From positions 18,440,366 to 18,504,365 of the forward strand of contig OX387185.1 of the NCBI GenBank assembly GCA_947561395.2: a stretch of DNA of 64,000 nucleotides, read 5' to 3'. How positions within the stretch are numbered: position 1 is the first letter of the stretch; every line of letters starts with the position of its first letter. Both the position numbers and the translations under genes were made by a program. Positions 5,720-29,487 of the stretch are shown one piece after another. The notes beneath the pieces are model-generated. The model saw only the letters and a list, made by a program, of their open reading frames with translations, searched no databases and was not told the DNA's origin. Origin of the DNA: Buxus sempervirens. Lineage: Eukaryota; Streptophyta; Magnoliopsida; Buxales; Buxaceae.

Positions 5720-5850
5720 ACCACAATTATAACACGGGCTGGGCTCGCCCGTATTGGTTATACGGGCTGGGCTCGCCAGTGCAAACCATACGGTCACGGC
5801 TTGCTCGTAATTTCAATGCGGTCAAGACCGGACCGTACTGTATATGCGAT
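5720..5850 (+). promoter_or_regulatory. Phased dyad array in Tat-1 leader
   Basis: Five units starting at 5720, 5748, 5776, 5804 and 5832, exactly 28 bp apart. Each is a 6-bp half-site near CCCGTA, 7 bp, then an inverted half-site near TACGGG. Best unit: 5748-5766. The 9-bp spacers are themselves similar (ctgggctcg, cacggcttg). The first unit is degenerate. Confidence 0.8.
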
Positions 5851-5984
5851 TTTCGCGGACAATTTAATTTTAATCAGTTTTTCCCATTAAATCTTGTTCC
5901 TTTAACCTTTAAAAAATGATAAAGGGAAATGAGTATGAATAAAATGCTTCAAAAAAAATAAATAAATAAAATGTGAGAGAAAAT

Positions 5985-6790
5985 CCTTTGGGCCTCTGAA
6001 AGCCTTTCAATTTCAGACTTTTTCTTAAAAATCCTTGGTCCTCTGAAAGCCTTTGAATTTCAGACTTTTTCTCAAAAATCCTTGGGCCTCTGAAAGCCTT
6101 TGAATTTCAGACTTTTTCTCAAAAAATCTCCGGGCCTCTGAAAGCCTTTGAATTTCAGACATTTTTCAAAAATATCCCTGGGCCTCTGAAAGCCTTTAAA
6201 TTTCAGATCTTTTTCCTTTGGGCCTCTGAAAGCCTTTGAATTTCAGATTTTTTTCCTCGGGCCTTTGAAAGCCTTTGAATTTCAGATCTTTTTCCCTTGG
6301 GCCTCTGAAATCCTTTGAATTTCAGATCTTTTGGGCCTCTGAAAGCCTTTGAATTTCAGATCTTTTTCTTTTGGGCCTCTAAAAGCCTTTGAATTTCAGA
6401 TCTTTTTCTTTTGGGCCTCTGAAAGCCTTTGAATTTCAGATCTTGTTCTTTTGGGCCTCTGAAAGCCTTTGAATTTTAGATCTTTTTCTTTTGGGCCTCT
6501 AAAAGCCTTTGAATTTCAGATCTTTTTCCTCGAGCCTCTGAAAGCCTTTGAATTTCAGATCTTTTTCCTTGGGCCTCTGAAAGCCTTTGAATTTCAGACC
6601 TTTATCGAAAATCTCTGGGCCTCTGAAAGCCTTTGAATTTCAGACCTTTTGCAAAAATATCCTTAGGCCTCTGAAAGCCTTTGAATTTCAGACATTTTCC
6701 AAAAATATCCCTGGGCCTCTGAAAGCCTTTGAATTTCAGACATTTTCCAAAAATACCCCTGGGCCTCTAAAAGCCTTTGAATTTCAGATC
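5985..6790 (+). repeat. Leader minisatellite with 28-bp core
   Basis: About 19 copies of a core beginning gggcctctgaaagcc and ending tttgaatttcaga, separated by variable T-rich spacers, total period about 32-50 bp. The same core occurs in reverse in the Tat-3 leader at 28270-28610, so it is a family trait. It ends ~170 bp before gag. An open frame across the array is a by-product of the repeat. Confidence 0.88.
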
Positions 6791-6949
6791 CTTTTCTCTT
6801 TTTGTGGGACCTGTTGGAAGCCCTAGAATATTCCAACAATTCTAAAAAAAAAAGAAGCAAATAAAGAAACAAATCCAAACTCGTGTTCACCCAACTTGCA
6901 CATAGGCATTTATAGGCATGTGAATGAGATTAAATGGGCACTGATATTT

Positions 6950-7022
6950 TTTCCTTTATTTTTTGCCAGGTACCAATACACTTGCAATCATAGCTCCTGT
7001 AACCAGATCAAGAGCTCGCGCC
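6950..7022 (+). other. Predicted 3' splice site before gag
   Basis: A T-rich tract ends in AG at 6968-6969, followed by gtaccaa and an open frame without ATG up to the ATG at 7023. Tat-2 has the same arrangement (AG at 43165-43166, then gtaccaa), and Tat-3 has one at 24631-24630 on the minus strand. The residues between AG and ATG (SPYLLRS-like in Tat-2 and Tat-3) are conserved, as expected if they are translated or under splicing constraint. Confidence 0.5.
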
Positions 7023-8048
7023 ATGAATCCCATTGAGACTGAAGCTGATGCTCCTTACCCAGATATTGTCCTGCTACAGGAGCAAGTGGCAGGACTAGCC
7101 CGAATGCTAGAAAACATACTGTCGGTGCAGGCCCAACAAGTGCAAGCCCAAAATCAAGCATCCACTTCCAACCCAGCACCTCCACCCCAAATCAATATTC
7201 CACCTCCAGTTCAACCTATTCCTGAACCCGTTTATGAACCCACCCCTGAACCTATACTGATCAGGGATGAGACAGTTGAATCAGACAAAGCTAAGGAAAA
7301 GGAAAGGATGAGGGAAGAAGTTGAAAGGAAGTTCATGCACAGACTGGAAATGATCCAAGACAAACTGAGGGAAGTAAAAGGGGTGAACAACTTCAGGGGC
7401 ACCAACTTTGAGGACTTATGCCTGTACCCTAATGTTAACATGCCAGCTAAGTTCAAGTGCCCAGACCTAGACAAATATGATGGCACTGGCTACCCCATGA
7501 GCCATCTGAAGTTGTACTGCGGTGCGCTATGCCAGTTCGGGCAGGATGAAGGCGTATTGATTCAACTCTTCCAAAGGAGCTTAACTGGAACTGCGTTGAG
7601 ATGGTTCGTCACTTTAGACCACGGAAAGATAAGAAGATGGAAGGACCTAGCAGATGCCTTCTTAGCTCAGTACCAGTTCAATTCAGAGATCGTGCCAGAT
7701 AGGTACGACGTAATGAGAATGAGTAAGGTAAGGGACGAATCTGTAAGGCAGTATGCCAAAAGATGGAGGGAGACTGCCTCCCAGGTTAGGCCACCCACGC
7801 TAGAGCAGGAGATGATTTCTACTTTCATCAGTACATTGGATCAACCATTCTACAGCCACCTGGTGGGTCAGACCACCACTAATTTTGCGGCTTTCGTACA
7901 AGTGGCCAACCGAATCGAGGACGGAATCAGGTCGGGTAAAATAATTGACCACTCTGCTATGATCAGTCAGCAAGACCCCAACCTAAAGAAAGGAAGTGGG
8001 TTGAAAAAGAATAGGAACAAGAAAGAAGGGGCGGTGAACATGGTGTAG
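7023..8048 (+). pseudogene. gag: gag, matrix/capsid part (Tat-1)
   Basis: Structural Gag of a Tat/Ogre element, which would form the virus-like particle in the cytoplasm. The frame is open from 6963, but the first ATG is at 7023 (MNPIE...), matching the MNPE start of the Tat-3 copy, so I chose it. Residues KFKCPDLDKYDGTG, a LFQRSLTG block and YAKRW mark the retrotransposon gag domain at about 7450-7770. A short coiled-coil-like stretch (EQVAGLARMLENIL) lies near the N-terminus. The frame ends in a TAG at 8046-8048, but the same frame continues coding homologous Gag sequence beyond it, so this is a premature stop and not the natural end. Confidence 0.85.
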
Positions 8049-9380
8049 CCACCATCAGACCCTAACAAGCCCATACAAATCAACATACCTGCTCATTTTC
8101 CTACTCCATCTGCTCCATCTACCCAGGCCCCCATGAGGGTTAATGTGCCAGCAGTACCCTCAGACCAAAAGAGGGTTTTTACTAAAGAGGAAAAGGATGC
8201 CTATTTCGTAGCAAGGAGAAATAGGGTTTTCACCCCTATTCCAATGACTCATTCTCAGTTGCTGCCCACTTTATTACAAGCACGGTATATCACTTTAAAA
8301 GAACCCAATTCGAATGCATCCAAGGGGAGAAATTATGACCCCTCCACCACTTGTGATTTCCACATGGGTGCACCTGGGCACTCTACTGACAAGTGTTGGC
8401 CGCTGAAACACGCCATTCAAGATTTGCTTGACCAGAATACCCTGTCTTTTAATACCGGGGCTCCTAATCCTCCTAGAACAGATATTGGACAAAACCCTCT
8501 GCCTCAGCATCATGGGGCGGGCCCATCTAATGTCATAGGGGTCATTTCTTCTGATGAAATAACCTTTGACACATCCCAGTTAATTGCTCCAATAGGGACA
8601 ACAGTCAAAGTTTATTTTGACAAAAGAAGTTGCAATAAAGAAATAAATGTGATTTCAAAAGGATATGATCGTGCTGTTGAGAGCATTAGCTCTGCTTTGG
8701 ACCAGGCCTCCTCCCTCATGGCCCAATTAAACATTGCAAAGCCGCCTTTGGTTATCAATTGCAATCCATTCACCCATTTTTCACCCACTTTATCAAAACC
8801 ACCATTGGTCATAAACTGTGACCATCTCAATGCATCAGTCACTTCTGCAACCTCTCAACCAAAACAGTGTCCACCATTGGTTGTTGATATTCCTCTTACT
8901 CAAATTTCATCATCCAAGTCCAAACTTCCTCCCTTGGTGATAAATGTCCCTAAGCCTTCCTACTCTGAATCGGCTGTACCATGGAACTACAGTGAAGGCT
9001 ACACTACTACATTCCCTGCAGCTGAGGCAGAAAGAAAGAAAGAAGTGAACCTCATGATGAGGTCAGGAAAATGTGTAGGAGTGGAAGAAAAACAAAAGGA
9101 GACAGAGAAGGAAAAGGAAGAAGAGAAAAATAAAGGAAGGGCCAAGGTAGGGGAAGATGCCCCTCAGGTAACTAACAGTGAGGCTGCTGACCTCATTAAG
9201 TTAATTAAAAAGAATGAGTTCAACATTGTCAAGCAGTTGAACAAAGTCCCTGCCCAGATCTCAATACTGGGCTTATTGTTAAATTCTGAAAAACATAGGG
9301 ACTCCTTGTTAAGGGTACTCCAGGGGGCCCATGTGCCTAAAAATATTGAACCAGACCAACTAGGCAAGATGGTTGGGTAA
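8049..9380 (+). pseudogene. gag: gag C-terminal part with zinc knuckle (Tat-1)
   Basis: Continues the gag frame after the TAG at 8046. A zinc-knuckle-like motif CDFHMGAPGHSTDKC sits at about 8352-8396, followed by KHAIQDLLD, which is also found in Tat-2 and Tat-3. After it comes a degenerate proline-rich repeat region (PPLVIN/PPLVVD units, about 8750-8960) and a lysine/glutamate-rich stretch near 9080-9140. It ends in TAA at 9378-9380, again in frame with the protease that follows. Function: nucleocapsid-type RNA binding and linker (family knowledge). Not translatable as one protein because of the two stops. Confidence 0.8.
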
Positions 9381-10115
9381 ATTTTATCTCATAATGTCAT
9401 AACTTTTTCTAAAACAGAGATCAGCCCAGCAGGGTACCATCATGTTGACCCTTTGCACATAGCTGTGCTCAGTAAGAGTTGCATAATAGCCCGGGTTTTA
9501 ATTGATAATGGGTCGGCTCTGAATGCCTGCCCGTTAATAACATTTGTTAAGCTCGGTCTGGAGCAAAATAAAATAAAACAAAATGGAAGAATCATAAGAG
9601 CATTTGATAGCTCTAAAACAAACTCCCTAGGGGAGGTTAAACTGCCGGTCACCATTGGACCGTATATTTTTAACATCACATTTGAAGTGATGTATATACC
9701 TGCAACCTTCAACCTACTCCTGGGAAGGCCGTGGATTCATACAGCTAGGGCTATACCATCTACCCTCCACCAAAGAGTCAAATATATTAGAGGGCAAAAG
9801 GTGATTACTATCCTAGCTGAAAATTTGGTTCCTCCCATGTGGTCCCCTGATGTACCCTACATAAACATGGAAATGACTACAGACAAGTTGGCATTTCACT
9901 CTTTTCAATTTGAAACTGTCAATTTTATACCTGGGGGGTATCAGGAAAAAGAAGGAAAGTTGACCTGTGCTGAGAAAATGGTCAAGAATATACTGGGAAA
10001 GTACAATTTCCACCCTGGAAAAGGTATGGGGGTTAACCTGCAAGGAAGGATAGAACCGGTAAAGGTTAAGAAGATGATCTACAGAGCAGGATTGGGGTCC
10101 AAGCTAAGGAATTAG
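9381..10115 (+). pseudogene. Aspartic protease domain (Tat-1)
   Basis: Retroviral-type aspartic protease that would process the polyprotein. The active-site region reads VLIDNGSALN at about 9495-9530, with D-N-G in the usual D-T/S-G place; this variant is common in Tat elements. A NLLLGRPWIH block at about 9711-9740 is the expected second conserved patch. The C-terminal part has a PGKGMG glycine motif (about 10010-10030). Same frame as gag, so gag and pro were one reading frame of about 1050 codons from 6963 to 10115, interrupted by two stops. Confidence 0.82.
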
Positions 10116-10810
10116 AGAAGACAGAAGGAGATGGAAGACATGAAATTCCCTCACATCAGGGAAACTTTTCCTAAACTTTCTCATATGATTTAACTGTCTC
10201 TTCCCCAGGATCAGTCCAAACCCGCATACTATAACATCAACCCATTCCAGAAACCCAAGTCCTCAACCGTGCAACCATATGTTCCACCCCCACCTTCACA
10301 AGCATTGGGTGGGCCTGGGCCACAGGCAGAATAGGAGCATGATTTCTCTGAGGACGTTGGAGCCTTTTTTGCCATGACTGAAGGCAACCAAAAAGAAGGA
10401 GCAGAGGAGCTACCTTTCATTGATTGGGCTGCAGTAGAAGTTCCATCTGGGACAGGCCCTACAGAAGAAGCAGGCGATGCAACTCACCCAATACTGGTGA
10501 TTTCAGATGCGGACCTTGAGCTTGAGGAGCAGGCTTGTATCCCTGCCCCAGATTCTTTTATATTGAACAATTGGGAGGAAACTCCCCTTACTTTTGAAGC
10601 CGCGTTTGTTTGGCAAACAGACATGGCTTCCAAAAAAAAACTCCATTAGTGGAATGCCCTTTTCCTGAAGATTTTAATGAGCCTTTGTCTTCAGGAAAAG
10701 ATTTTGTAGAAGGCTCTCAAAAAACACAAAAGGATTTTTCAATTTTTTCTAGAAAAATTAAATTTTTCAAAAAGGTCTAAACCACTTATGAACCGTATAA
10801 GCAAACGGAA
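10116..10810 (+). other. Protease-RT linker (Tat-1), decayed
   Basis: Continues in the protease frame with proline-rich (10265-10310) and acidic (10374-10649) stretches, but carries in-frame stops (near 10190 and 10332, and at 10647) and changes frame before RT. A FIDWA block near 10420 also occurs in Tat-3. In Ogre elements an intron lies in this interval (family knowledge). I see no convincing donor/acceptor pair here and do not assign one. Confidence 0.55.
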
Positions 10811-11596
10811 TTGGATCAGGTTGAGTATGACTTCAACCTCGAGCTCAACTTTGACCTAATAGGGGTTGAGGAAGAGACCAAGGACGAAGAAGACGACCTT
10901 CCAAAAGAAATCACATATCAATTGGAGCGTCATGAAAAGGGGGTTCAACCCAATATTGAAGAGACCATATCAATAAATCTAGGGATCGAAGATGACCCAA
11001 AAATAGTAAAGATTGGGGTATGCTTATCTGAGGTACAACGGGATGAAATGATACGGTTCTTGGCTGATTATGAAGATGTATTTGCATGGTCGTATCGGGA
11101 TATGCCAGGGTTAGACACGGACATGGTTGTGCACAGGCTACCAATTCTACCAGATGTTAAGCCAGTTAAGCAGAAGTTGAAAAAGTTGAAACCTGAATGG
11201 ACATTGAATGTCAAAGATGAAGTGGTTAAACAATTCCAAGCAGGATTTTTGGCGGTCTCCATGTACCCTGAATGGCTTGCAAATATAGTGCCAGTGCCAA
11301 AGAAGGATGGAAAGGTCCAAATGTGTGTAGACTACAAAGACTTGAATAAGGCAAGCCCAAAGGATGATTTTCCACTTCCACACATCGACATCTTGGTGGA
11401 CAACACTGCTGTACATAGCCTGTTCTCGTTCATGGACGGTTTTTCTGGGTACAATCAAATTAAGATGGCTAAGGAGGATCAAGAAAAAACAGCCTTCATT
11501 ACACCTTGGGGTACCTTCCACTACATTGTCATGCCATTTGGGCTTAAAAATGCCAGGGGCAACCTACCAGCAGGCCATGACAGTATTATTCCATGA
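10811..11596 (+). pseudogene. Reverse transcriptase, first half (Tat-1)
   Basis: N-terminal half of a Ty3/gypsy reverse transcriptase, which copies element RNA into DNA. Visible landmarks: FAWSYRDMPGLD ahead of RT, VPVPKKDGKVQMCVDYKDLN (about 11290-11347), the first catalytic Asp in FMDGFSGYNQIKM (about 11430-11468) and ITPWGTFHYIVMPFGLKNA. Just after LKNA, near 11556, a single-base difference shifts the conserved sequence into another frame, where it continues. The 40 codons after that in this frame are not RT. The first residues (from 10811) follow a frame change relative to the linker, so the true start is not visible. Confidence 0.85.
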
Positions 11597-12335
11597 CATG
11601 ATCCATAAGGAGATGGAGGTCTATGTGGATGATATGATAGCCAAATCATGTGAAGAAGAAGACCACCTGATCAACTTGAAGAAGGTGTTTGACCGGCTCA
11701 AGAAATACAGTCTAAGGCTTAACCCTGCGAAATGCGTCTTTGGGGCTACATCAGGAAAATTATTGGGCTTTATAGTAAGCAGAAGGGGAATTGAGATTGA
11801 CCCAGCTAAAGCTAAAGCAATCATTGAAATGCCATCACCTAGAACGGAAAAGGAAGTTTGTGGTTCTCTTGGAAGGATTCAGTACATAAACCGGTTCATA
11901 ACACAGCTCACCACTATCTGTAAACCAATTTTCAAGCTTCTAAGAAAGAATAACCTGACGGTCTGGAATGACGATTGCCAAGAAGCCTTTGACACAATAA
12001 AGGAATATTTATTGAACCCACCTGTGCTAGTGCCACCAACTCTAGGAAGACCATTGATTTTATACTTGTTAGTTTTGGAGATGTCAATGGGGTGTGTCTT
12101 GGAGCAGCATGATGATACAGGCAGAAAGGAAAGGGTGATTTATTACCTAAGCAAGAAATTTACAGAATATGAAGCAAAGTATTCCCCTTTGGAAAAGACT
12201 TGTTGTGCTTTAGTGTGGGCAACTCAGAGACTGAGGCATTATTTCCTTAGTCATTCCACCTTATTGATATCCCGAATGGATCCTTTGAAGTATTTATTTG
12301 AGAAACCGGCTTTAACTGGCAGAACAGCAAAGTGA
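11544..12335 (+). pseudogene. Reverse transcriptase second half and first RNase H (Tat-1)
   Basis: Genuine homology begins near 11544 although the frame is open from 11364. It holds the YVDD catalytic motif (about 11622-11633), LGFIVSRRGIEIDPAKAKAI (about 11764-11823) and the connection domain. From about 12040 comes the gypsy-type RNase H (IYYLSKKFTEYEAKYSPLEK, then LVWATQRLRHY). The first RNase H Asp usually found in this family appears as Glu (VLEMSMG). The frame ends at a TGA (12333-12335) in a position where relatives have Trp; a TGG to TGA change fits methylation-driven decay. The same frame continues after the stop. Confidence 0.85.
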
Positions 12336-12338
12336 CAA

Positions 12339-14237
12339 TTGCTACTCTCTGAATTTGACCTCACCTATATCACACAGAAAGCCATTAAGGGTCAAGCCAT
12401 TGCTGATCACTTAGCTGCACACCCTTTACTAGAATACCAACCTTTGAAGACTAATTTCCCTGATGAGGCAATCCTATTTACAGAAAAAGAAGAAGGTGAA
12501 AACTCTTGGCAAATGTTTTTTGATGGGGCCACCAATATGAATGGAAATGGAATAGGGGCTGTTTTGATCAAGCCAGATGGGGCACACATCCCAATCGCAG
12601 TGAAGTTAAGGTTCCAATGCACAAACAATATTGCAGAGTATGAAGCATGCATAATTGGGTTACAAGCAGCCTTAGACCATGAAGTGGAGGAACTTGACGT
12701 ATATGGAGATTCAAGTCTTATCATCTTCCAAACAACTGGTGAATGGAAGACCAAGGATCACAAATTGATCCCCTATCACCAGTATTTGGAAGAAATAAGC
12801 AATAAATTTACTCGAATTTCCTTCAATTATATGCCAAGGGCCAAAAAACAGTTTGCGGATGCTTTAGCCACATTGGCTTCAATGGTCAGTATGCCAGAAG
12901 GTGTTAATATTAGACCATTGGAAATTGAAGTCAGGGATGAACCTGCTTATTGCCTTGTTCTAGAAGAAACACCAGAAGAAGAAGTACCATGGTTTCAAGA
13001 CATTAAGAACTTCCTAAATGATCGGAATTTGCTAGAAAATGTCACTTCTACAGAGAAAAGAACAATACAGAGGTTGGTAGGTCAGTTTTTACTAAGTGGT
13101 GGGCAGTTGTACAAAAGATCACACAATGATATCCTGCTCAGATGTGTTGCCAAGACCGAGTCAGAAAGGTTAGTTGAAACTATACATGGAGGAGTTTGTG
13201 GACCCCATATGAACGGGCATATGCTTGCCAAGAAGATTCTGCGATTGGGATATTACTGGTCGACGATGGAGCACGATTGCTATATACATGTCAAAAGGTG
13301 TCATTTATGCCAAGTGTATGCTTATAACAAGAATGCACCCCCAAGTGAATTGCACAACATGACATCTCCATGGCCCTTCTCCATGTGGGGTATAGACGTC
13401 ATTGGAATGATCTCTCCAAAGGCATCAAATGGACACAGGTTTATACTTGTAGCAATTGATTACTTCACCAAGTGGGTAGAGGCAGCTTTACATGCAAACA
13501 TCACAAGTAGCCACGTTCTGAAATTCTTGAAGCACAATATCATTTGTCACTACGGTTTGCCAAGTGCCATAGTATCAGACAATGCTTCAAACCTTAAGAA
13601 CAAGGACATGAGGAAGATGTGTGAACAATTTCAGATGACCCATCACAAGTCAACTTCGTACAGACCAAAGATGAATGGGGCAGTGGAAGCAGCGAATAAG
13701 AATATAAAGAAGATCATCCAGAAAATGGTAGTGAGTTTCAAAGATTGGCATGAAATGCTACCACTTGCTCTACATGCTTACAGAACCTCGATTCGGACTT
13801 CTACAGGGGCAACGCTGTATTCTTTAGTATATGGGATGGAAGCGGTTTTACCAGTAGAAGTAGAAATCCCTTCATTAATAGTGCTAATGGAAGCTAAATT
13901 AGAAGAAGCTGAATGGATACAGTCAAGATATGATCAACTCAATTTGATAGAGGAAAAGCGTTTGAAAGCACTTTGTCATGGCCAATTGTATCAGAAGAGA
14001 ATGGCCAGGGCTTACAATAAGAAGGTGAAGCCCAGGACTTTCCAAGAAGGAAATTTAATATTGAAGAAAATTTTACCCTTTTTGGAAGACCCTCGTGGAA
14101 AGTTCAAACCAAATTGGGAGGGACCTTATATGGTCAAGAAGATCCTATCAGGGGGTGCTCTTATCTTAACAGAAATGAATGGGAAAGATTTTCCTGAGCC
14201 AATTAACTCTGATGCAATAAAGAGGTATTTTCCTTGA
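12339..14237 (+). pseudogene. Archaeal-type RNase H and integrase (Tat-1)
   Basis: 632 codons without a stop, but the natural start is lost to the TGA just before. Residues ~55-185 form the second, archaeal-type RNase H that defines the Tat clade, with catalytic Asp62 (FFDGA), Glu100 (NIAEYEA), Asp124 (YGDS) and Asp174 (FADALA). The integrase follows: zinc-binding His283/His290 and Cys321/Cys324, then the DDE core with Asp353 (GIDVIG), Asp414 (VSDNAS) and Glu450 (GAVEAAN). The 35-residue spacing between the last two is canonical. The C-terminal part (about 560-630) has the usual GPY-like patch (NWEGPYMVKKIL). It ends TGA at 14235-14237. All catalytic residues of these two domains are present. 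Confidence 0.9.
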
Positions 14238-15139
14238 ATGAATATTACTAGGAAATGATCTAAGGCCATTTTTCCTTATATCCCAAAATTTTCATCCCTA
14301 GTCAAGCCAATTTGAGCTTGTTCTTCTTCTTTGCTAAACATAAACTGGACTTACAGTCTTATATTGGGGCAAGGCCAATAGGGGCAAAGCCAATAGGGGC
14401 AAAAAGAGAAAAAAAGAAAGAGAAGAAAAATAGTGTCAAATGAAAGCTAAATATATAAAAAAAGGGAAATGGGATTAAATTCATCGTGACTGTAAGTCCG
14501 GTTGACCTATTTTCACACTTAGGAAAATTTTGAGCCTTTAATACCTTTTCTTTCATAAACCGAGCTTAGCCTTTATTTCGTCCTATTCTTAAGCCCTAGA
14601 TGATTTTAGTATATTCATTCAACTTTCAGAATAAGATTGGTGATGACGGAATGCAGAAGCCGGCCCTAGTGAAAACCGTAATTGGCGCTAGGGGCAATAG
14701 GGCAAAAGAAAAAAAAAAGAATCAAGGGTTGAGTTGATCATGTGGTCCAAATTTAATCAGCATGGGCACTAGAAACTGAGCAGATTAGCAGGGTCAGTCA
14801 TGAAGAAAAAGCCATTAGGGGATGATTCTAAAGGTTACAGGATAGACAGATTTGGTCTCTCCCTATTGCTTGGATTACCCTTTTCATTAGTCAACCTGAT
14901 TTTAATTCCTTTGATTATATGTGATTAAGTGTTGTGGATCAGCTTTCAAAAAAAAACTATACTTTGACCAATGATGAGAAATCAAATACTTTTTTATAAA
15001 ACTTCTGTTTTTACAAGCATCTGAGAATTCTGAGGCCAATAATAGAAAACCTATTTTTGAATTAAATCTATTGCCTTTCCACTATTGGAGTTTGCTTTGT
15101 ATAAAGGTATGAAAAAAAAAGGAAAAAAAAAAAGATAAT
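14238..15139 (+). other. Tat-1 region between integrase and antisense gene
   Basis: No gene. Short degenerate direct repeats of 'caataggggcaa' type occur near 14365-14402 and again near 14690. It holds the convergent 3' ends of the sense polyprotein and the antisense DUF7745-like gene, so both polyadenylation regions should lie here. Confidence 0.5.
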
Positions 15140-16946
15140 CTAATCCCTACTCCCTAACTGCTCCTCGAGCTCCCTAATCCGAGCTGCCTGAGTTGCAATG
15201 ATTCCAGAAGCTCCCTCTGCATCGAGATCGCTAACAAAAGAGATGATCTCATCTGAAAGTGATTGCTTGATCTTCAACGCCCTAAGGTCAGCCAGGGAAT
15301 CCTGATATTTCTTCCGCATCGCTCGTACTTCAAAGCGACGAGCCTGTCTTTGTTCTTCAAGTTTCTTCTCCATGGCAATGCGACAAGACCTCTGCTCTTC
15401 AAGTTGCCTCTCCAGATCAATACCCTTTATCCTGAGTTCTTGTGCTTCTCGTACCCAAATTTGTTGAAGCCGCTTGTGGGTTGCCCTTTCAAACTCCAGA
15501 ATGTCCTCATAAGTAGGGGGAAGAATTGCAGGAGGATCCTCTGGTACTGGGGCATGACTCTGCACCTGCTCTTTGATCCAGAAATGATAGTCCTTCACAT
15601 GAGACTCAGAAAAGACTGGACCCCGCAGAAAGCAAACATAGGACCACTCATTCATTAATTGAGCATTTAGCCCCATGGTGGCTGATGTAAGTGGCCTTAC
15701 AAGGCTTTCATAGCCAGTTGGGATCATGATTTCCTGGGTCGCTCCAAACTGTCGAAGAACCCTCAAAGGAAGATAGAGAACAATAGATTTCAAGCCTGCC
15801 AAGACCAGAAAGTTCCTATCTCTGAAGCTGATCACTGTTTCTGGATTGGGCTGATAAGTGCCAGGCCATCTCACTTGATCATTCTGGAGAGTACCCAAGA
15901 AAGTGAACCATCCCTGCTTGCCGCTTTGGATATTAGGACACCCCTGTTGCTCATCAAAACAAGAACTTTCAATCTTGGAAAGAAGCGGCGAGTTATCTGT
16001 TCAACCTAACTCAGGTGGTCAAGCAACCAAAGCTGCAAAAAAGGGGAGTATTTCAATTTATTTTAAAGAAAAAAAAAGAAGAAAAGAAAAAAAGAAAAAG
16101 AAAAGAAAAAAAAAAGAAGAAGAAGAAAAAAAGAAAGAAAGAAGGGGAAAGAAGAAAAAAACAAAAAAGAGAAGAAGAAGAAGAAAAAAAGAAAGAAAAA
16201 AAAAGAAGACAGAGAAAAATTTTATTTTTTATTTTTTATTTTTTTACCTGTAGGATAGGGGTGCAGGCAAGGAAGCGTTTCTTCTTTCTGAAATAGCAGT
16301 CAGTCAGAGCCTGGTATATCTCTGCCAAGATCATAGGAGCCAATCTCTCACGTTCCCTAACCTGGCAGACAACTAAGATGAGAGCCAAGTCAACCTGGTC
16401 GTCACCCCATGGAAAAAGCAACTGATTGACCACTATCAGAGTCAAAGCATTAAACTTGGAATCCTTGTCCCCACTCCTTAGAATTTTTTTAGTCAAAAAG
16501 GCCTGGGAGCAGGTCAATAGTGTATCAGAATTTCCTAAGTCTTTCTTCCCTATACCCAAGAAGGTGGAGGCCTCCTTTTTGTAGCTAGGCTTTAGGGGCG
16601 GGTTCACCACTTTTTCAGAAAACCTTAGGCCAAGGATGGTTTCAATTTCTTCTATGGTAGGAGTCATTTCTTTGTCATCAAAGCGGAAGAGATTCAATTC
16701 AGGAACCCAGTGTCCAATCAAAGCTTCAATGATTTCCCATTTAAAGGGAATTTTAGGGATGTGTAGGATGTGGCCTAAGTGGATGGAATCCCAGCGAATT
16801 TCCTCATCAAGGGTCATGGAGTTAACCCGCCTATCATAGAAGGAGTCTACAACATTGTACCTGGTGAGATTAGGAGGTTTGGATCTAACAGGTTGTCTTG
16901 CAGGAGAAGATCCATCGGCAAAAGAGAAACGGGCAAGGGAAACCAT
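15140..16946 (-). pseudogene. Antisense DUF7745-like gene, two exons
   Basis: Minus-strand gene inside Tat-1. Exon 1, 16946->16248, starts with ATG and is open for 233 codons. The donor CAG|GTAAAA is at 16247, and a T-rich intron ends at AG 16034-16033. Exon 2 runs 16032->15140. The intron is phase 0 and its polypyrimidine tract appears on the plus strand as the A-rich 16065-16220. The protein resembles ORF1 of Tat-2 (LRVLRQFG, LVRPLT, MNEWS, SESHVKDY patches), a family I believe is DUF7745. The last ~85 residues are a predicted coiled coil rich in E/R/Q. Exon 2 is broken by a TAG at 16008-16006 and a frameshift before about 15900. Function unknown. It has its own promoter-like block upstream (17037-17199). 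Confidence 0.65.
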
Positions 16947-17036
16947 GGAAACACCAAAGAAGCCAAGGAAAGTAGAAAACGGAAAGCTCAGGGAGTTTTC
17001 AAACTTTTAAAAACATCACAGTGACGTTCCCCATGA

Positions 17037-17199
17037 GTTTATATAGAAAATTCGAAAAGACAGCAAAATCCGTAATTATAATACGAGCATGGCGTGCCCA
17101 TATAGAGAATACGGACACACTGTGACCGTGAAATATTTACGGGCAGAGTGCACCCGTATTAACATTACGGGCACGGCTTGCTCGTAAGCTAATTACTGT
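17037..17199 (-). promoter_or_regulatory. TATA box and dyad array driving antisense gene
   Basis: On the minus strand TATATAAAC lies at 17045-17037, 91 bp before the ATG at 16946. Directly upstream of it are five dyads starting (plus coordinates) at 17069, 17097, 17125, 17153 and 17181, exactly 28 bp apart, each a 6-bp half-site, 7-bp gap and inverted half-site (best: 17153-17171, CCCGTA..TACGGG; the last is degenerate). The nearest dyad is 24 bp from the TATA box. Confidence 0.78.
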
Positions 17200-17414
17200 T
17201 TCTTCGGAAAAATGCAAAAAAAAAAATGGGAAGTTTCAATTTTAATGCTTTCCCAAGTTTCACCTGTCCCTGCTTTAACATATAGCATGCAAGAAAAGCT
17301 AGAAATAAAAGGAAAAAGAGCATAAATGAATAAAAATCAAACTTCTTTTATATATATGAAGGTGTACATCGTTTTGTCAAAATACAAGTACATGAATGAA
17401 TCCTAATCTACTGT

Positions 17415-20286
17415 CTATACAGGTCCACCCCTACGGCCACGGCTACGTCCTCTGCCTCGGCCACGGACTGGAGACCGCCGGCACTCAAAAACATGCCGCA
17501 CAATGTTACGGGCTGTAATACGGGTCATCCTGCTCAAAACAGACTGAATATCATGCCACATATATAAAGGCACAAGGCCAGCAATGGGATGATCAAGAGG
17601 AACGTACCCTGAAGTATCTACATATCCCGTAGACTCGGTATCAGAATCAGTAGAGGCAGACTCAGTCGCAGGACCAACGGCAGCAGGCGTCTCCTCTGTA
17701 GGCCCTGTGGCAAGATCAGCGGGAATGGACATCCCAGGAGAATCAGCATCATGTATAGGCTCAACAGAAGCCTCCTCTATCACCACGGCCTCCTCGGTAG
17801 GCTCCACCACAGCGGCATCCCTGGCCGGCTCCATATCCATATCAGCAAACACATCAGGAGTGGTCTCAGGTGCTGGAGCAGACTCTGGCACATCCTCAGC
17901 AGTAGGTATAACCTCAGCCTCGATCTTAGGCTCTGCTGCAGGTGCCTCTACTGATCTGGGATAAGTCACAAACTCCACCCGTTCCACAGAAAAAACCTCA
18001 CCACGAAGGTGCATAGGCACAGATGAAGTAGGTGAAAAAGGGCCGGCTGTGTCATCCTGAAAATAAGAAAGGGAATTTTAGTCAGAACAGGATAAACAGA
18101 GATAAAAGCAAAAAAGAAAGAGGTGAAAGAATTAACTTGGGTATGAGATGGACCCGCCTGGTCCTGTGCATCAGAAGGGCCCGCTTGGCCCTGTGCCCTG
18201 GCAAGCTGTCCCCAGAGATCGGAAATAGTAATGTAGAGGGCGTCCCGCTCAGCAATAGCAGCATCTCGCTGACGCTCTATATCAGCATACCGAGATTGGA
18301 TCTCTGCCAACTGAGCCTCCTGAAATAGAAGAGAAGTGTCAGAAAATGCCAAGACAAATAGAATATATGAATTGAAGATCAAAAAAGAGAGGGCATACCG
18401 TCGTGTCGTAGGCCCTGATCACTACCCCTCCTATCTCCGTGACTCCGCCACGGATAGGCATGGGTGGCATGAGGCACCCAACTGAAGATCGCCTGAACCA
18501 GGCATCATAGTCACCCTCCTCCAATGATGTCTCTGCCTCAATCCAATCTAGAAACTGGGCAGGATCAACAGGCAGAGGAGGAAAGGAAGGAGTAGTATCT
18601 GGAGGGATGACAAGAATCCGAGGCTCTCCAGCATGCTGATAAAAGAAGCGCTCGCCGCAATACCAGATGCTGCCCATCTGACCAATAAAGAACTAATATC
18701 TCTAACATCTCTGGTCAGGGGCAAAGGCATCATCTCTAGCCGCATGCAGGGCCAGCACCTCATGAATGTCCTCCATCCCGGGGACGAACAGCTGAAAAAA
18801 CAGAAAGAATAACATTAGACATGTGATTCAGGAAGGAAAAAAGAGGAGGGAGGAAGAATTAAAGAATATTACCTCAGACCGATATAGCATGTCCAGGTGG
18901 GCCCGGGCAGACCTAGGACGACTCTTTTCAGAGTCGTGCTCCACATGACACCATCTACGAGCCATGGGATATGTCTCCTCTGGCATCGTAGAGGTAGGAC
19001 GGAAATAGGGGATATAAACCCTAGCAAAGAACTGCAAAAAGGAAGAAAAAGGGTCAAGAAGAATAGAAAAGGAGAAAAGAGAAAGAAAGAGAAAGAAAGA
19101 GAAGAGAAATAGATATTTCACCTGCAGGAAGGGCCAGAAGAATCTACACCCAACTCCAGCTCCTTTGGAAGTAGAGAGGCCACTTATTGATCGGCGCAAG
19201 CCGGCCAAAATGGTACCAAAAATGAGCGGGCCCCAGGCGTACCTCCTCGCTCGATGAAGATCTCCCAATAAGCTCAAAAAATGAGGATTGACAGAAGTCG
19301 TGTCCTCTGGGAAGAAGCAGGAGCCCATCATATATAGAAAAATGAAGCGGAAGGCAAATGGAAAAGCTGGATCACCGGCGGCAAGCTGGCCAAGCTGCCT
19401 CCCCCGGAAAGTCTCTCTCAACCAAGTCAGAGACAATCTCGCTCTCCCTATATCCCAGGCCTTCGGAGGCAGCACAATATAGCCAAGATAAGAGGCAATC
19501 TCCTCGGCATCCGGTATCACCATCTCGGGAATAATATCACCGATCATCCTGATCCCGGTGATAAGCGTGAAGTCAGACGGCCGGATCCCAATCTCAATAT
19601 CTGGAAAATGGAAGCTCAATGTCTCAGGGAAGAACCTCTCGAGCAGCGCCGCAATAAGGGCTCGATCCAGGCGAACATCTGGAATAGTGATGAAGAGGCC
19701 AAAGCCATACAAGCCTAGCTCCCGGCGATAAGCTGAACTGCAATCTCCAATAAATCTAATAAAACTGGCCCAGCTCCCTCTATAATGAGACATGGGATAC
19801 TCCAAAGGGATGTCTGCCCTAATACACGCTGAGGGATGAGTCCTCAAGCCATGCAAAAGATCAGTATCCCTAATCTGGACAGCCACCTCCTCAGGGACCT
19901 CAACCCTGGTCCTGACCTCATCTCTGCCACGGCCTCCTCTGCGACCTCCTCTACGGCCCTCATCATGGCCTCTGTCTCTGCCTCCACCCTGGCGCCTGCT
20001 ACGGCTCCTGTCTCTGCCTGAAGCCTCAACTGCCAGCTAAGGAAACAATTGGAAGGGAAAAAGGAATCAGGGTGATGCATTTTGTGAAGGAATGTGAAAT
20101 TTTAGAAAGGTTAGAGTATACCTCTGGGGTCGCCTCACGCGAATCTCCAGAAGGGAGATCTGGGATATCAGAATCGGAATCCCTCTCGGCCCTCGAAGAC
20201 GAGGCCACATCAGCATGATCCCGCCGAACCCTCGAGGAGGAGGGCTCATATGCAGGATCCCTGGAGGCTGATCGAACACGAGCCAT
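17415..20286 (-). pseudogene. Antisense plant-mobile-domain (PMD) gene, six exons
   Basis: Minus-strand gene with six predicted exons: 20286-20122, 20036-19122, 19031-18873, 18791-18399, 18319-18137, 18056-17415. All five introns are GT-AG, short (about 80-90 nt), T-rich and phase 0, giving 818 codons. It opens with an Arg/Ser-rich segment and an RGG-rich stretch. Residues ~160-360 are a plant mobile domain (ALLERFFPETLSFHFPDIEI, then a W...F...YAWGPLIFGTILAGL block), the MAIN/MAIL1-type fold also carried by some plant transposons. Exon 5 is coiled-coil-like (IERQRDAAIAERDA), exon 6 is acidic and Pro/Ala-rich and ends in an RGRGRGRSRGRRGG tail. Two TAG codons in exon 4 (18704-18702, 18695-18693) probably inactivate this copy. 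Likely nuclear; molecular function unknown. Confidence 0.75.
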
Positions 20287-21757
20287 CTACGGTTCAAATC
20301 AAGGAGATGTTAATTATTCTTGTTAAAATTTTTAATTGCTTGATTTTCATTTTAACCAAATTTAATTGATTTGCAGGAAGAAGAAAGAAACTCCCAATCA
20401 AATCCAGAGCCAACTGAAGTAGTTCATCTTTTATTATCTGTCTTGGATCTAATCAAGGAAACATATAAAAATTATATGTGGGAAGTACAGACTTCTCACA
20501 TATTCCCTTTATATGACAAAATAAAGAAAGAAAGAAAAAGAGAGAAGGAAAACTTTAATTTAGAAGAACTCTAATTTGTGTGTATAACGATTTAATTCCC
20601 TAACTACTGATTTTATGTAATTTCAGGGAGTTAACAGAAAGTTGGAGCATTCAAGTGAGGAAAGTATTCAGATTTGTCAAGATTTTGAACAGTGATGACA
20701 TAAACAAGAAAGTAAACCATGTTTCAATCAGGAATGTGGTTTCAGAAAGAAATGTGCAGAAAAATTCCTAGAAAAGGCAAGCTTATCTCAAAACAAATAT
20801 AGTGCATGCATGGGATACTAGCAAGCTAATCAGCATGTTAGCAATGCAAGGTTAGACAGCGGAGAATTTAACTGCATTCAAAGACCAATGGCTAATTGCT
20901 CCCGAAGGCCAATGGAAAAAGGGAATCAGAACTTCAATTGGAAGCATACAAGATCAAAGCAGAAATTCAAAGCAGAAATCAAGTCTGAATAAGAGAAAGT
21001 TACAAGCATGTGTCATTAGCAAGAAAAATCAGTATACGGATTGGAATTTGAGGATGTATTCATTCAAAAGCTGGAAAATGCAGAAAATCAGCAGCCAATG
21101 CATGAGTTTATCAAAACTACAATTCAAAAGCTTGGGGAATAGATAGGCATGTTTAGCAACAGTAAACATGAGAACAGAAATTGCACAATACTCAAGCTGG
21201 AGGAATTGCACAGCAGAGGTTAATTCATGCAAGAACAAAAAAATGGTATAACAAAAATCAGGCATTGTGGCCAATGGCACAGCAATTCCGGAGGAAGTAC
21301 ATGGCATTTGCAGCAAAAAAAAAATATAATCATTCAATGCTCATTCAAAAACAAAAATCGCAAAGCATACAATTTGGAGGAATTACTCAAGATGCATTGC
21401 AAAGCATTCAGTCAAGTAAAAGGAATTGATTTTCGGCATACCTGTTTTTGTCGAAATAAGGAACGGGCAAAGAAAAGTGGAAGCTTTGAGCACACTCACG
21501 GATGGTATCTGATGTGTGTGGAAGCCTTGAACGAAATCCCAAGAAATGGGAACGTGTACCAGTCTCGGTAGTGGGAGATGAGAGTCACCGGAGATAGTGG
21601 ACGTCGCCGGAGAAGTTGAGTGTCACCGAAGAAGATGGTCGTGCACTATTGAGATCGAAGAGGACCGGAGAAGAGAATACGGGCATGAGCAAAATAGGGC
21701 AAAATGCGAGCATAAGAGAAAGAAGAGTCGCGGCCGCGGTTAAGAAGGAAGCCGAAA
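20287..21757. other. Upstream region of antisense PMD gene
   Basis: About 1.5 kb between the PMD start codon and the dyad array at 21758. No convincing coding sequence. A TATA-like catataaagg on the minus strand lies at about 20508-20517, ~225 bp before the ATG, and may be the promoter. Alternatively transcription starts near the dyads and this is a long 5' UTR. Confidence 0.45.
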
Positions 21758-21859
21758 TCCATAAAATCAATACGGGCAACAAGCGTCCGTGAAGGTAATA
21801 CGGTCCAATTCGCCCGTGTTTAAATTACGGGCAACATCTGTCCGCAATATAAATATGGG
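21758..21859 (-). promoter_or_regulatory. Dyad array upstream of PMD gene
   Basis: Four units starting at 21758, 21786, 21813 and 21841 (28, 27, 28 bp apart), each 6-7-6, for example CCCGTG..TACGGG at 21813-21831. Half-site is the same as in the other Tat-1 arrays. No clear TATA box beside it. Confidence 0.75.
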
Positions 21860-22172
21860 CGAAGCAGAAAATCTCATTTTTTATTATTTTCTCCACACTT
21901 TTCAGGAGGTTAATGTCCATATTAGTTGTAAGTTGCAAGGATTTCCACCTTACCCACTTTTGTTTAAAAATTTTGTCCCAAATCTCACTTCATAGCCACG
22001 AGTGCTCAGTGAGAGGAGAGAGGAGGATTTGCCCCTTAAGCTTAGGGACTTTTCAGCAAATCTTCCGCAATGAAGTCTTTTTCCAAAATCATCCATTTAA
22101 TCCTTGCAAAATGCAATTAATTAGATAAAAATCTCAAAAAGTGCAATTGGTGGGTCTTTTTGCTCTCTGCTT

Positions 22173-22207
22173 GTAATTGGTTCCAATTACCAGCAAAGAG
22201 GGGGCAG
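22173..22207 (+). promoter_or_regulatory. Inverted repeat and polypurine tract of Tat-1
   Basis: Polypurine tract aaagagggggcag at 22195-22207 lies immediately before the LTR start at 22209, as needed for plus-strand priming. Four bases ahead of it is a perfect 8-bp inverted repeat with a 2-base centre (gtaattgg/tt/ccaattac, 22173-22190). Confidence 0.75.
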
Positions 22208-22208
22208 T

Positions 22209-23845
22209 TGTAGACACCCCAAATTGCACTACAAAATGAGAAAATAATGAAAACATGTAATTGGGATTTAAAACAAGGCAAAAATGCATGAAAATCAATA
22301 ATTTAAGCCTTGCCCGTATTGTATCTACGGGCTGAGCTCACCCGAATTGTATATACGGTCACGCAGCGCCCGTAATACATATACGGACACCACTGGACCG
22401 TGAATCATTTACGAGCACATTAGATTTGTGCGAGTTTTATTCTTTCTCTATTTCTGAGCCTTATCTTTAGTCCAATATCCCTTTAAATGAGCGAATTATA
22501 TCTTTTATTCGTTCGGATTATCTTTGTTGGCCATGAATGGGCATTATCCTTGTGTTTAACTCAATATGAAACTCTATCTTGCCAAACCTTGGACCAACCA
22601 TGCCCCTGTGTTTGCCTATAAATAGAGGGCCTTTCCTCAAGCAAAAGGCCACGAAAATTTTGAAGTCCAAGGAGCTCCAAGAGAAGAGAGGAATCCCTAC
22701 TGCTCTGCTTGCTCAATCCAGGTAAGTCCCTTTTCAGTTTTATTTTCTGTCTTCAATTCTAGAAGTAATAGGATCTTCTCCATTGCTGTAGAATAAGGCC
22801 ATCTTTTATTCTGTATTCCTAAACTTTTCTCTAAGTACCTCAAGAGTCTCTCTAGCCGTAAAACGTAAAGAGAGAGCTAGGGGAAAGGGGAACATGTGGA
22901 TTCCTAGAATAGAACCCCATATCTGTTTTTCTCCTTTTTTCTAGAATAAGGCCTTTGATTGTGTTTGTGTACCCAAACCTATCTCTAAGTACCTTAAGAA
23001 TCCTCTTTAGCCGTAAAACGTGAAGAGAGAGCTAGGGGAAAAGAGAACAGGTGGATCCGTAGGGTAGACCCCCATGTGCTCTAATCTGTGAGATGTGGCT
23101 GCTTTTGATATCCTCATCATGTTTTAATGATTTTATACCTGGATTAATCATATGAATCCATGATGTTTATATCATGAGATCCCCACTTTTTTCTAAACTT
23201 TGGATTTTCACCACTTTTGCAGCTACAGCACTGTTTTCGTGATTTTTGAGATATTATGCTAAGATCCTCAATCTATCATGATCAATATGATAGATCTGGA
23301 TTCAAAAGCCTGAAAGTAATTTCTAAGGTTTCATGATGTGGTTTTTGAGTCCTTTTTCATTATTGAGAGTAGACCCTAGGGTCTAAGATCTCCCCTTTTG
23401 ATGTTCTTCATCAACGTGGGTTTTTTTGGTTTTAATTTCTTGATTTAATATGAAATTTGGGCTATATCTATGTCCTGGATTGTTCAAGTTCAATTCTGCA
23501 ATATTTTATAAAATCATATTTTTCTAGATTTCTAGAATTTAACTTGAAGCCAGATTTTTGAAGTTTTCACTTTAGATTGGTTTTATTTGATTTTATCTCA
23601 ATTTTATTTTAATCATGAAACCCTAGGAATGGTATGATCATATTTGAAAGTTCTGGATCAATCAGGCTATTCGTATCTGGTTGTTTTTTTTAGAGGGTTA
23701 TTTTTACCCTAAATTTGCCTTTTGTGCTTATTTGATATTTTGGTGTCCATTCACACCTAAACAGAATGGTGGCGACTCTGTGTTTTTAACCAATCCTGTG
23801 TGATGACCGGGAAGTCATTGAATTGATTTTTTCCCATGTCTCACA
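22209..23845 (+). repeat. Tat-1 3' LTR
   Basis: Starts TGTAGACACCCC directly after the PPT and ends ...CATGTCTCACA. 1637 bp. It holds the U3 dyad array (22313-22415), a TATA box (TATAAATAG, 22617-22625), the splice donor near 22723 and a region matching the 5' LTR throughout, apart from a ~170-bp deletion near 23670. The right flank (ctcac) continues into Tat-3 gag. Confidence 0.9.
22313..22415 (+). promoter_or_regulatory. U3 dyad array of Tat-1 LTR
   Basis: Four 19-bp units at 22313, 22341, 22369 and 22397, exactly 28 bp apart. The first is the best match: CCCGTA, 7 bp, TACGGG. They lie ~200 bp upstream of the TATA box. A remnant of the same array is at 2824-2857 in the 5' LTR. Confidence 0.82.
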
Positions 23846-27661: not shown

Positions 27662-28648
27662 TAGACAACCCAGAGAGATTGATGTTTGAAATTCATAGGC
27701 TTTCAAATGGCCCAAAAAGGTTATGTCTAAAATTCAGAGGCTTTTAAACGACCCAAAAAGGTTGATGTTTGAAATTCAGAGGCTTTCAAACGGCCCAAAA
27801 AGGTTGTATCTAAAATTCAGAGGCTTTTAGACGGCCCAAAGAGAAGGTTTCTAGAATTACTTAGGCTTATAGAGGCCTATGAATTGGTTGGTATGAAAAA
27901 GACCATCCAAAGAGTTGTTGGAATATTTTAGGGCTTCCAATGTCCCACAAGATACGAATTGGTTGGCACGAAAAAGGCCATCCAAAGAGTTGTTGGAATA
28001 TTTTAGGGCTTCCAACATGTCCCACAAGATATGAATTGGTTGGCACGAAAAAGGCCATCCAAAAAGGTTGTTGGAATATTTTAGGGCTTCCAACGTGCTA
28101 TAGGATACAAATTGGAATTAAGGCTTCCAAAGCCTCCTGAAATTACTCAGGCTTTCAGGAGCCTATGAAGGGTTCTAGAATCACGCAAGCTTCTAGGTGC
28201 TTATAAGGATAAAGATCTGAAATTTCAGGCTTTCAGAGGCCTATGAGTTTCTAAATTAAGGCTTTAGAAGGCCTAAGAGGTTAAAAAAAATCTGAAATTC
28301 AAAGGCTTTCAGAGGCCCATAGAAATTTTGGAGAAAATCTGAAATTCAAAGGCTTTCAGAGGCCCACAGAAATTTTGGAGAAAATCTGAAATTCAAAAGC
28401 TTCTACAGGCCCACAGAAATTTTGTAGAAAATTTGAAATTCAAGGGCTTTCAGAGGCCCATGGAAATTTTGGAGGAAATCTGAAATTCAAGGGCTTTCAG
28501 AGGCCCATGGAAATTTTGGAGGAAATCTGAAATTCAAGGGCTTCCAGAGTCCCATCGAAGTTTTGGAGAAAATCTGAAATTCAAGGGCTTTCAGAGGCCC
28601 ATGGAAGAAATTTTTTCTTTTTTTTTTAGACTTTTGATTTGATTCTTT
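27662..28648 (-). repeat. Tat-3 leader minisatellites
   Basis: Minus-strand leader of Tat-3. At 28270-28610 the same core as in Tat-1 (tctgaaattcaaaggctttc on the plus strand) repeats about 7-8 times with ~57-bp period. At 27840-28100 a different ~80-bp unit (ttggcacgaaaaaggccat.. ttggaatattttagggc) repeats three times. At 27700-27840 shorter degenerate units occur. No coding potential; open frames here are repeat artefacts. Confidence 0.75.
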
Positions 28649-29227: not shown

Positions 29228-29487
29228 TCCGACCAAATATGTCGGATACACATATTTTTGTGTATCCGACATATATTGTCGGAGACAAAAGATTTTCTAA
29301 GCGAGATTCACGCCGATTCCCCGACAAATTCGCAGCGGCATTAAAATTCCAAATTATTATGTTTTGTATCCGATATTTAATATCGGATACAAGTAGAACT
29401 TATTGTATCCGACCATATAGGTCAGATAGACTAAGTATGTAGTGTATCCGACCTATATGGTCGGATACATTAAGTTGCCTATTTAAG
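29228..29487 (+). promoter_or_regulatory. Dyad array and TATA of Tat-2 LTR
   Basis: Five dyads with half-sites TCCGAC/GTCGGA (often extended to GTATCCGAC/GTCGGATAC), all with a 7-bp gap, starting at 29228, 29265, 29369, 29408 and 29447 (spacing 37 or 39 where adjacent). The last ends 15 bp before TATTTAAG at 29480. Confidence 0.8.

Follow-up and report, generated by a model that had tools for sequence, protein, structure and literature searches.

Alternating CCG dyad arrays at promoter-like positions of an Ogre/Tat-like retrotransposon of Buxus sempervirens, and a possible lineage-specific code

A stretch of 64,000 nucleotides from Buxus sempervirens (contig OX387185.1, positions 18,440,366 to 18,504,365; called here the window) contains a long terminal repeat (LTR) retrotransposon in which short inverted sequences are arrayed at several separate places. 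The question raised by this locus is what the arrays are for and what reads them. The element carries two antisense genes, A and B, which match the plant mobile domain (PMD), and the arrays are located in the U3 region of both LTRs, in the leader and upstream of each antisense gene. The arrays are very probably promoter-proximal operators whose flanking bases form a class-specific cis code. It is probable, though with clearly less assurance, that a protein encoded by the element reads this code, and the sequence data lead us to favour slightly, as an overall description, the operators of a self-coded regulatory circuit.

The arrays of the window element are as follows.

2824-2858, no strand assigned: remnant of the U3 array in the 5' LTR (LTR1), three half-sites, from the 7-mer lattice
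5733-5837, no strand assigned: leader array, GCCCGTA class, eight lattice positions, two of them without the CCG core
17068-17186, no strand assigned: gene A promoter array in 14-bp steps, nine half-site positions, three without an intact CCG
21757-21860, no strand assigned: gene B promoter array with one 27-bp step, from the 7-mer lattice
22312-22416, no strand assigned: U3 array of the 3' LTR (LTR2), eight half-site positions, one without an intact CCG

An earlier sequence-only reading of this DNA had proposed five array sites, and all are present within 1-2 bp of the places proposed. Only a remnant is found in LTR1 because this LTR is cut at its 5' end. The lattice position preceding the leader array (5719) matches at only three of seven bases, and the leader array occurs at the same place in two other copies (L016 and L021; L-numbers denote loci fetched from the genome, including 20 stretches of 10 kb taken around matches to the GCCCGTA pattern). 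The unit is the 7-mer GCCCGTA and its complement with a 7-bp gap on each side, and the orientation alternates every 14 bp. Since a half-site of 7 bp is combined with equal gaps of 7 bp, both dyads of the lattice measure 14 bp from centre to centre. The regular inverted half-sites that had been proposed were thus recovered, while the 6-bp half-site CCCGTA is better described as the 7-bp GCCCGTA, and the core common to the families is CCG-N11-CGG, repeated every 28 bp. A count that allows up to one mismatch in CCCGTA gives, for the window, 10 dyads at a start distance of 13 bp and three chains of at least four half-sites, compared with a mean of 0.35 dyads (maximum 2) and no chains in 200 dinucleotide shuffles of the window. 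The refuting outcome named earlier, the same density in shuffled sequence, was thus not seen. The alternation and even spacing of the half-sites suggest a multimeric protein that would bind cooperatively along the array.

The same geometry was searched for in one plant genome, the 676.5-Mb genome that is the source of the window. The pattern YCCGTR-N7-YACGGR has 20,309 matches, while the pattern read backwards has 355. Lengthening the spacer to N8 reduces the count to 72, and the backward version of this N8 pattern has 1,411 matches. Backward patterns thus give variable controls, and a comparison of spacers is to be preferred. The enrichment that the sequence-only reading had set as a test is borne out on the whole genome, and the peak at 28 bp in the window and the 20 fetched stretches, where it was examined. 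In these stretches exact half-sites are found 13 bp apart inward 26 times, 15 bp apart outward 17 times and 28 bp apart in the same sense 8 times. When CCG..CGG pairs with fully symmetric 2-bp flanks were counted in the 20 loci and the window, 57 fell at distance 14, 7 at 27 and 16 at 42, with 0-2 at any other distance; the loci had been chosen by the GCCCGTA pattern, and 21 of the 57 pairs have flanks outside that pattern (ATCCG 17, AACCGC 3, AACCGG 1). Outward CGG..CCG pairs in this set number 22 at 14, 12 at 25, 13 at 42, 9 at 12 and 5 at 15. At distance 14 the eleven control triplets yielded between 0 and 10 pairs. Some of them peak at other distances because they read these arrays with a shift of one base, as TCC does at 16 (21 pairs). 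For the window by itself, when three of the four flank bases had to be symmetric, 15 pairs lie at distance 14, 5 at 42 and 0-2 elsewhere.

The flanks were divided by us into three classes: CCGTA or CCGTG (GCCCGTA, together with GACCGTA and AACCGTA), ATCCG, and AACCGC. The genome contains 47,011 dyads of the ATCCGR form, compared with 114 matches to the backward pattern, and 6,478 of the AACCGC form, compared with 794. The period of the GCCCGTA dyads is 28 bp. For ATCCGR it is 39 bp in 50 of the 59 neighbour pairs lying less than 130 bp apart (among 89 of 90 listed places, one lone place being dropped), and for AACCGC it is 28 or 38-39 bp. The difference between 39 and 28 is 11 bp, approximately one helical turn, so that the angle between neighbouring dyads would be kept. 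At least three flank classes (GCCCGTA, ATCCGR and AACCGC) are found on one fixed geometry across families. Fourteen LTR starts located by a TGTAGACACCCC-like search of the window and the 20 loci comprise nine of the GCCCGTA class, three ATCCGR, one AACCGC and one without an array in its first 300 bp. Two groups of matches were set aside. The sole strict three-half-site match in the IMG/VR viral contigs (L045) lies inside an open reading frame (ORF); it was attributed to chance and used as a background figure. The single dyads of L006 and L010 (ATCCGTG..TACGGAT and similar) are pairs approximately 540 bp apart in another repeat and are not arrays.

It is important to compare the classes present at the different places of a single element. 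In the window element the arrays of U3 and leader and those of both antisense genes are all of the GCCCGTA class. A related element has ATCCGGT at the gene A promoter (L047:3239-3376, four dyads), at gene B (L015:1727-1786, two dyads) and at U3 (L015:2413-2550, four dyads). The last 151 integrase residues of this element are 91% identical to those of the window element (84% in DNA), and gene A is 80% identical in its N part and 70% in its C part. A third element, 69-76% identical to the window element in DNA where it can be aligned, has AACCGC at gene A (L020:6540-6657), gene B (L046:1188-1247; two dyads with one good half each) and U3 (L046:1700-1965). The locus L046 was fetched to test the prediction that its LTR and gene B would match the class of gene A in L020, and AACCGC was found at all of these places. 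Four further elements on C1 (starts 3409340, 3441586, 3679720 and 4234113) have ATCCGR at five places whose distances correspond to U3, leader, gene A, gene B and U3; the place names follow from distance, and the sequence check covers U3 and leader of the element at 4234113. One of the four has a single dyad at the leader. Among the matches listed, none of the four contains an internal exact dyad of the GCCCGTA or AACCGC pattern. In two of them a GCCCGTA dyad lies 256 and 765 bp before the first array, and it seems that these dyads belong to an LTR of another family which the element has entered.

Apart from three single dyads described below, all 19 copies or part copies with at least two typed places were found by eye to be of a single class (12 GCCCGTA, 5 ATCCGR and 2 AACCGC), where arrays were grouped by distance and orientation, and copies with one place and ATCCGR groups that could not be assigned were left out. 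These data support the conclusion that the half-site sequence of an element changes at all its typed places together, with the geometry left as it was. The phase is kept while the flanking DNA diverges, as had been suggested, and the non-coding, promoter-like location of the arrays holds for the window element and its relatives. The opposite possibility raised earlier, that the arrays are one recently duplicated tract, is ruled out because each position retains its array in copies whose surroundings have diverged.

Two separate observations concern these copies. AACCGC dyads at C1:7812049, 7812189, 7828426, 7832776, 7833368 and 7833508 have approximately the distances of U3, gene A, gene B and U3, and probably represent another complete AACCGC element. 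On C1, family A LTRs of the GCCCGTA class (L013 at about 5618 and 8351, and L014:5622) are interrupted by different DNA at almost the same point, some 780-790 bp into the LTR. For L014 this DNA is an ATCCGR element, and it may be that one family prefers a particular site for insertion into LTRs of another family.

The window holds further arrays outside the range of the sequence-only reading, and the position of arrays relative to TATA boxes was compared.

29227-29466, plus strand: ATCCGAC-class arrays, the last CGG 15 bp before TATTTAA, from the pattern search
32230-32306, no strand assigned: AACCGC-class array on a 14-bp lattice, probably the leader array of a minus-strand element, as assigned from distance
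33423-33692, minus strand: AACCGC-class arrays, the last CGG 16 bp before CTATAAATAG, from the pattern search
about 63346-63449: GCCCGTA-like array

The distance from the last CGG to the TATA box is 15-17 bp in nine promoters of three classes. Five family B LTRs have 16 bp and a sixth has 17 bp. The ATCCGGT gene A promoter likewise has 16 bp, and among LTRs in the window an AACCGC one has 16 bp and the ATCCGAC one 15 bp. In two more family B copies the last dyad has decayed and the last CGG is 28 bp farther from the TATA box. For gene A, 5,528 first-look candidates were found in the genome and 148 were scored. Twenty gene A promoter copies besides that of the window have the array upstream of CTATATAAACTC, and this TATA box is identical in 21 of 21 sequences. 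The distance between the TATA box and a mark on the far side of the array is 187-189 bp in 16 of the 20 copies and 192 bp in the window; the promoter of L031 is 28 bp shorter, that of L025 is 27 bp longer, and L030 and L034 run into other DNA. In 18 of the 21 sequences (L030, L031 and L034 being dropped), identities are 0.85-0.97 for half-sites, 0.78-0.92 for spacers within the array, 0.93 for coding sequence, 0.90 for the 5' leader and 0.85 for the upstream region.

The two length variants are what would be expected if the arrays were tandem repeats without function, growing and shrinking by slippage, with gene conversion or template switches of the reverse transcriptase (RT) keeping the arrays of an element alike. 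Tandem repeats are described as common in Retand elements in the parts of PMC11963269 covered, and homogenisation could produce one class per element. This explanation is improbable. The spacers differ within and between arrays while CCG and the spacing stay; CCG-N11-CGG is common to classes with different flanks and periods; the arrays recur at the same promoter-like places; the N7 spacer exceeds N8 by 20,309 matches to 72; and mirror symmetry is not kept by slippage alone. A structure in nucleic acid, either RNA hairpins or DNA cruciforms acting for example in packaging, reverse transcription or termination, is very improbable. Every unit is an inverted repeat and the leader array would be part of the genomic RNA. 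However, each of the alternating half-sites has two neighbours with which it could pair, the gene A array is upstream of its TATA box and hence outside that transcript, and pairing does not need a fixed CCG core.

The candidate reader has to be considered together with the organization of the window element, which is presented below.

2817-4449, plus strand: LTR1, truncated at its 5' end, 96.6-97% identical to LTR2
6945-9380, plus strand: gag region, Pfam PF03732 within 6945-8048
9381-14237, plus strand: protease-like, RT, RNase H and integrase region, with RVT_1 in 10781-11596 and RVT_3, rve and Integrase_H2C2 in 12336-14237
15140-17006, minus strand: antisense gene A, PMD/DUF7745, in ORF pieces 16236-17006 and 15140-16000, with PF24924 (3.7e-19) and PF10536 (5.7e-12) in the first piece
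17035-17046, minus strand: TATA box CTATATAAACTC of gene A, between the array and the ATG (about 16946), invariant in 21 aligned sequences
17415-20286, minus strand: antisense gene B, ATG at about 20286, with PF10536 (2.5e-21) in 18828-20036
22209-23845, plus strand: LTR2, beginning TGTAGACACCCC, from the LTR comparison

The sequence TGGCGACTCTGCTGGGGA at 4452, 2 bp past LTR1, resembles a primer binding site and presumably suits a tRNA-Arg. The Pfam scan gave no convincing family in 8049-9380 of the gag region and no family in 17415-18077 of gene B, and the matches in the second piece of gene A (15140-16000) are weak. The plus-strand ORFs stop at 10115 and restart at 10781, no ORF of at least 120 amino acid residues being listed for 10116-10780. 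In the portion of PMC6317226 covered, the gap (intron) of Ogre elements between gag-protease and RT-RH-INT has a mean of 274 bp; the gap here exceeds this value, in an element with frame breaks. A RVT_3/RNase_H match is located upstream of the integrase, and PF10536 is found in both antisense genes, between the integrase and the 3' LTR, in agreement with the PMD-bearing extra ORF of the Ogre/Tat lineage. Such a domain is present in 57% of Ogre elements according to the covered part of the same survey (PMC6317226). The description of the window element as a PMD-bearing, Ogre/Tat-like Ty3-gypsy LTR retrotransposon appears to fit better than the name Tat-1 used earlier. As read from the sequence, the C-terminus of gene A appears charged and coiled-coil-like, and gene B appears to have introns and RGG-type basic stretches near both ends, with its start placed as above. 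About 1.4 kb, probably including a leader intron, separates the array of gene B from the ATG downstream of it.

If the reader is encoded by the element, its sequence might be expected to change with the class. Within the GCCCGTA class gene A is 86-91% identical, and gene B is 89-90% identical in three complete copies and 89-93% in one partial copy (six were fetched, two of which gave no match). Between GCCCGTA and ATCCGR the identity is 80% for gene A and 51-53% for gene B, and between AACCGC and ATCCGR it is 72% and 53%. This comparison of three elements suggests that gene B may have changed beyond expectation at one switch, which is also the one that changes the period. A search of sequences in the PDB with a piece of gene B gave no matches at E values up to 10. 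Assignment of the PMD to a known DNA-binding or recombinase fold was set aside, with no backing from that search or from two structure models (pLDDT 36 and 37); no fold search was made. Two diverged PMD genes were noted separately. One, in the window at 36688-37830 on the plus strand, is 32-37% identical to gene A, contains stops and lies near the opposite-facing AACCGC arrays at 32-34 kb. The other (L005:7108-8444, with L002 and L003) lies about 3 kb downstream of a GCCCGTA-class LTR-like promoter and is co-directional with it, perhaps representing a sense-strand PMD family.

A copy extending from L021:4827 to L022:7390 has LTRs that are 99.9% identical, a 5-bp end repeat ATTTT, and both the U3 and the leader arrays. 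Besides a gag region it has 61 residues that match the sequence preceding RT, and neither integrase nor PMD gave a match in it. It is a member of a non-autonomous family that keeps the arrays. The retention of arrays in a recent copy without a PMD match is as expected of a factor acting in trans.

The same copy could be explained if host DNA-binding proteins, either hijacked activators or host repressors, read the CCG dyads, the families differing in the paralogue that they use or have escaped. The arrays adjoin TATA boxes, and the GCCCGTA class is common to distant families, as expected of a shared host reader. Such a reader is nevertheless unlikely: a single host factor gives no reason for the flanks to switch at all typed positions together, and the same dyad geometry in all classes points to one protein family. 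Among host transcription factors, the candidates are ARF-like proteins (CCGAC/GTCGG) and DREB. They were rejected because the resemblance is limited to the ATCCGAC class and these factors would not read all classes.

A protein of the element might also act as a repressor that limits copy number by autoregulation, with the same operators and the same reader as in the preferred explanation. The end of the lattice about 16 bp upstream of the TATA box in several promoters would be suited to blocking, and the host PMD proteins MAIN and MAIL1 act in silencing as described in the part of PMC5418596 covered. On the other side, the recently moved copy without a PMD match keeps its arrays, which is easier to understand if the array helps, and MAIN and MAIL1 are also required for the expression of some genes (PMC7156037, in the part covered). 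The repressor is slightly less likely than the host reader. The likelihoods given to these alternatives overlap with that of the preferred explanation and do not sum to one.

For that explanation, an element-encoded reader, the following mechanism is proposed. A dimeric protein would polymerise along the array, reading CCG as the common core and the flanks as the lineage-specific code. It would be made by the element itself, most likely by an antisense PMD gene, with gene B favoured. It would activate, or keep unsilenced, the genomic promoter and its own genes, and would act also in trans on copies without the gene. That the reader is a PMD protein acting as activator or anti-silencer has, on the sequence data, a little less than an even chance. 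If the specificity of the protein changed, all operators of the lineage would have to follow, and the result would be lineages without cross-talk. In its most complete form the proposal is more tentative: a lineage-specific code for activation or anti-silencing may have arisen in LTR retrotransposons separately from that of VANDALs, in which an antisense PMD protein polymerises on CCG-N11-CGG lattices before every promoter of its lineage, and switches of the code (28-bp GCCCGTA, 39-bp ATCCGR, AACCGC) split lineages into sets that do not cross-react.

Several observations weigh against the mechanism outlined above, beginning with its basis in a single genome. The enrichment of AACCGC is only 8-fold over its control, and the spacing between dyads varies (28, 38 and 39 bp). 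Single dyads of mixed or deviating class occur at three places (L011:4156, L024:1140 and L046:1081). In another ATCCGR element (L014 with L048) the gag is 67% identical to that of the window element, and the lineages are thus not close throughout. Anchoring to the TATA box is missing from leader arrays and from the LTRs of family A, the distance for gene A of the window is 24 bp, and eight further TATA-like matches at 14-19 bp were set aside as AT-rich spacers inside arrays. The constraint on half-sites in young GCCCGTA copies is modest, with some but not strong conservation. Between the GCCCGTA and AACCGC elements gene A is 69% and gene B 64% identical, which makes gene B hardly an outlier, and the link between array and PMD is drawn from three elements having both genes. 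Family B is of the GCCCGTA class, yet its PMD protein is only 30-36% identical; the phylogenies of motif and protein do not simply match. The two PMD structure predictions (AlphaFold) have the low pLDDT values given above owing to a lack of relatives, and they lend no structural support to the idea that PMD binds DNA.

No account of these arrays was found in the open-licence literature searched. The operators of Gal4-type proteins, CGG-N11-CCG, are inverted triplets with an 11-bp spacer read by a dimer; the readers are fungal zinc-cluster proteins, and the sites are single and form no continuous lattice. The likeness to the window dyads, inverted CCG triplets with an 11-bp spacer, is an analogy only. 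The VANDALs of Arabidopsis, on which VANC proteins act, are Mutator-like DNA transposons. With its LTRs, gag, RT and integrase the window element is no VANDAL, although it may act in a VANC-like way. In the parts of PMC5735166 and PMC10398659 covered, VANDALs carry repeated short non-coding motifs that are family-specific targets (YAGTATTAY; AGTTGTCC and AGTTGTAC), and the repeats are gained, lost and changed together within a lineage along with the protein. Element-specific non-coding motifs changing in concert are found here also. However, the VANC21 motif is arrayed in one orientation, while the window arrays are inverted dyads of fixed spacing near TATA boxes, and for VANC both binding and loss of methylation are demonstrated by experiment (PMC5735166, PMC10398659, in the same parts), while the present system is known from sequence alone. 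The candidate proteins of the window match PMD in Pfam, and the likeness to VANC is one of logic and not of element class or motif design.

The same domain as in genes A and B is found in MAIN and MAIL1, which act with PP7L, and host PMD genes act in silencing (PMC5418596, PMC7156037); a promoter motif, DOWN, is reported for them (PMC7156037). The clades PMD-A1 and PMD-A2 are found only in Gypsy elements, the function of PMD is described as still to be determined, and its use in anti-silencing by MULEs is a speculation of the authors (PMC5418596); these statements refer to the parts of the two papers covered. Retand, with the antisense ORFs of TRP28, and Grande, with gene23, are also Tat-type elements with antisense genes between pol and the 3' LTR, and gene23 is transcribed from its own promoter with a proposed regulatory role (PMC11963269, PMC7264820). 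The domain of these antisense ORFs is PF04195 and not PMD. The tandem repeats of Retand are family-specific and of unknown function, and no dyad code appears in the parts of these two papers covered (PMC11963269, PMC7264820).

Other repeats occur in the window. Between the leader array and gag, at 5980-6797, there are tandem repeats of 40-48 bp with TCTGAA/TTCAGA pairs, which recur inverted at 28287-28606 and constitute a second type of repeated inverted motif in these elements. At 38165-39532 approximately 1.3 kb of diverged 22/44/87-bp repeats contains the word AGGTAC in either orientation. The TCTGAA, GTACAA and AGGTAC repeats were also returned by a de novo scan of the window and loci, in which the dyads showed the single geometry described above.

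What the PMD domain and the antisense genes of Tat/Ogre elements do is not settled, and the arrays offer a concrete, testable target for them. Approximately 74,000 exact dyads of the three classes are present in this genome, and the natural switches of specificity make the recognition code solvable. If the arrays are read by element-encoded proteins, plant transposable elements would offer a second case, independent of the first and this time among LTR retrotransposons, of self-regulation through specific sequences. If the PMD protein does act through an activation or anti-silencing code, the plant mobile domain would thereby gain its first molecular function, and an origin of the host silencing factors MAIN and MAIL1 would be indicated.

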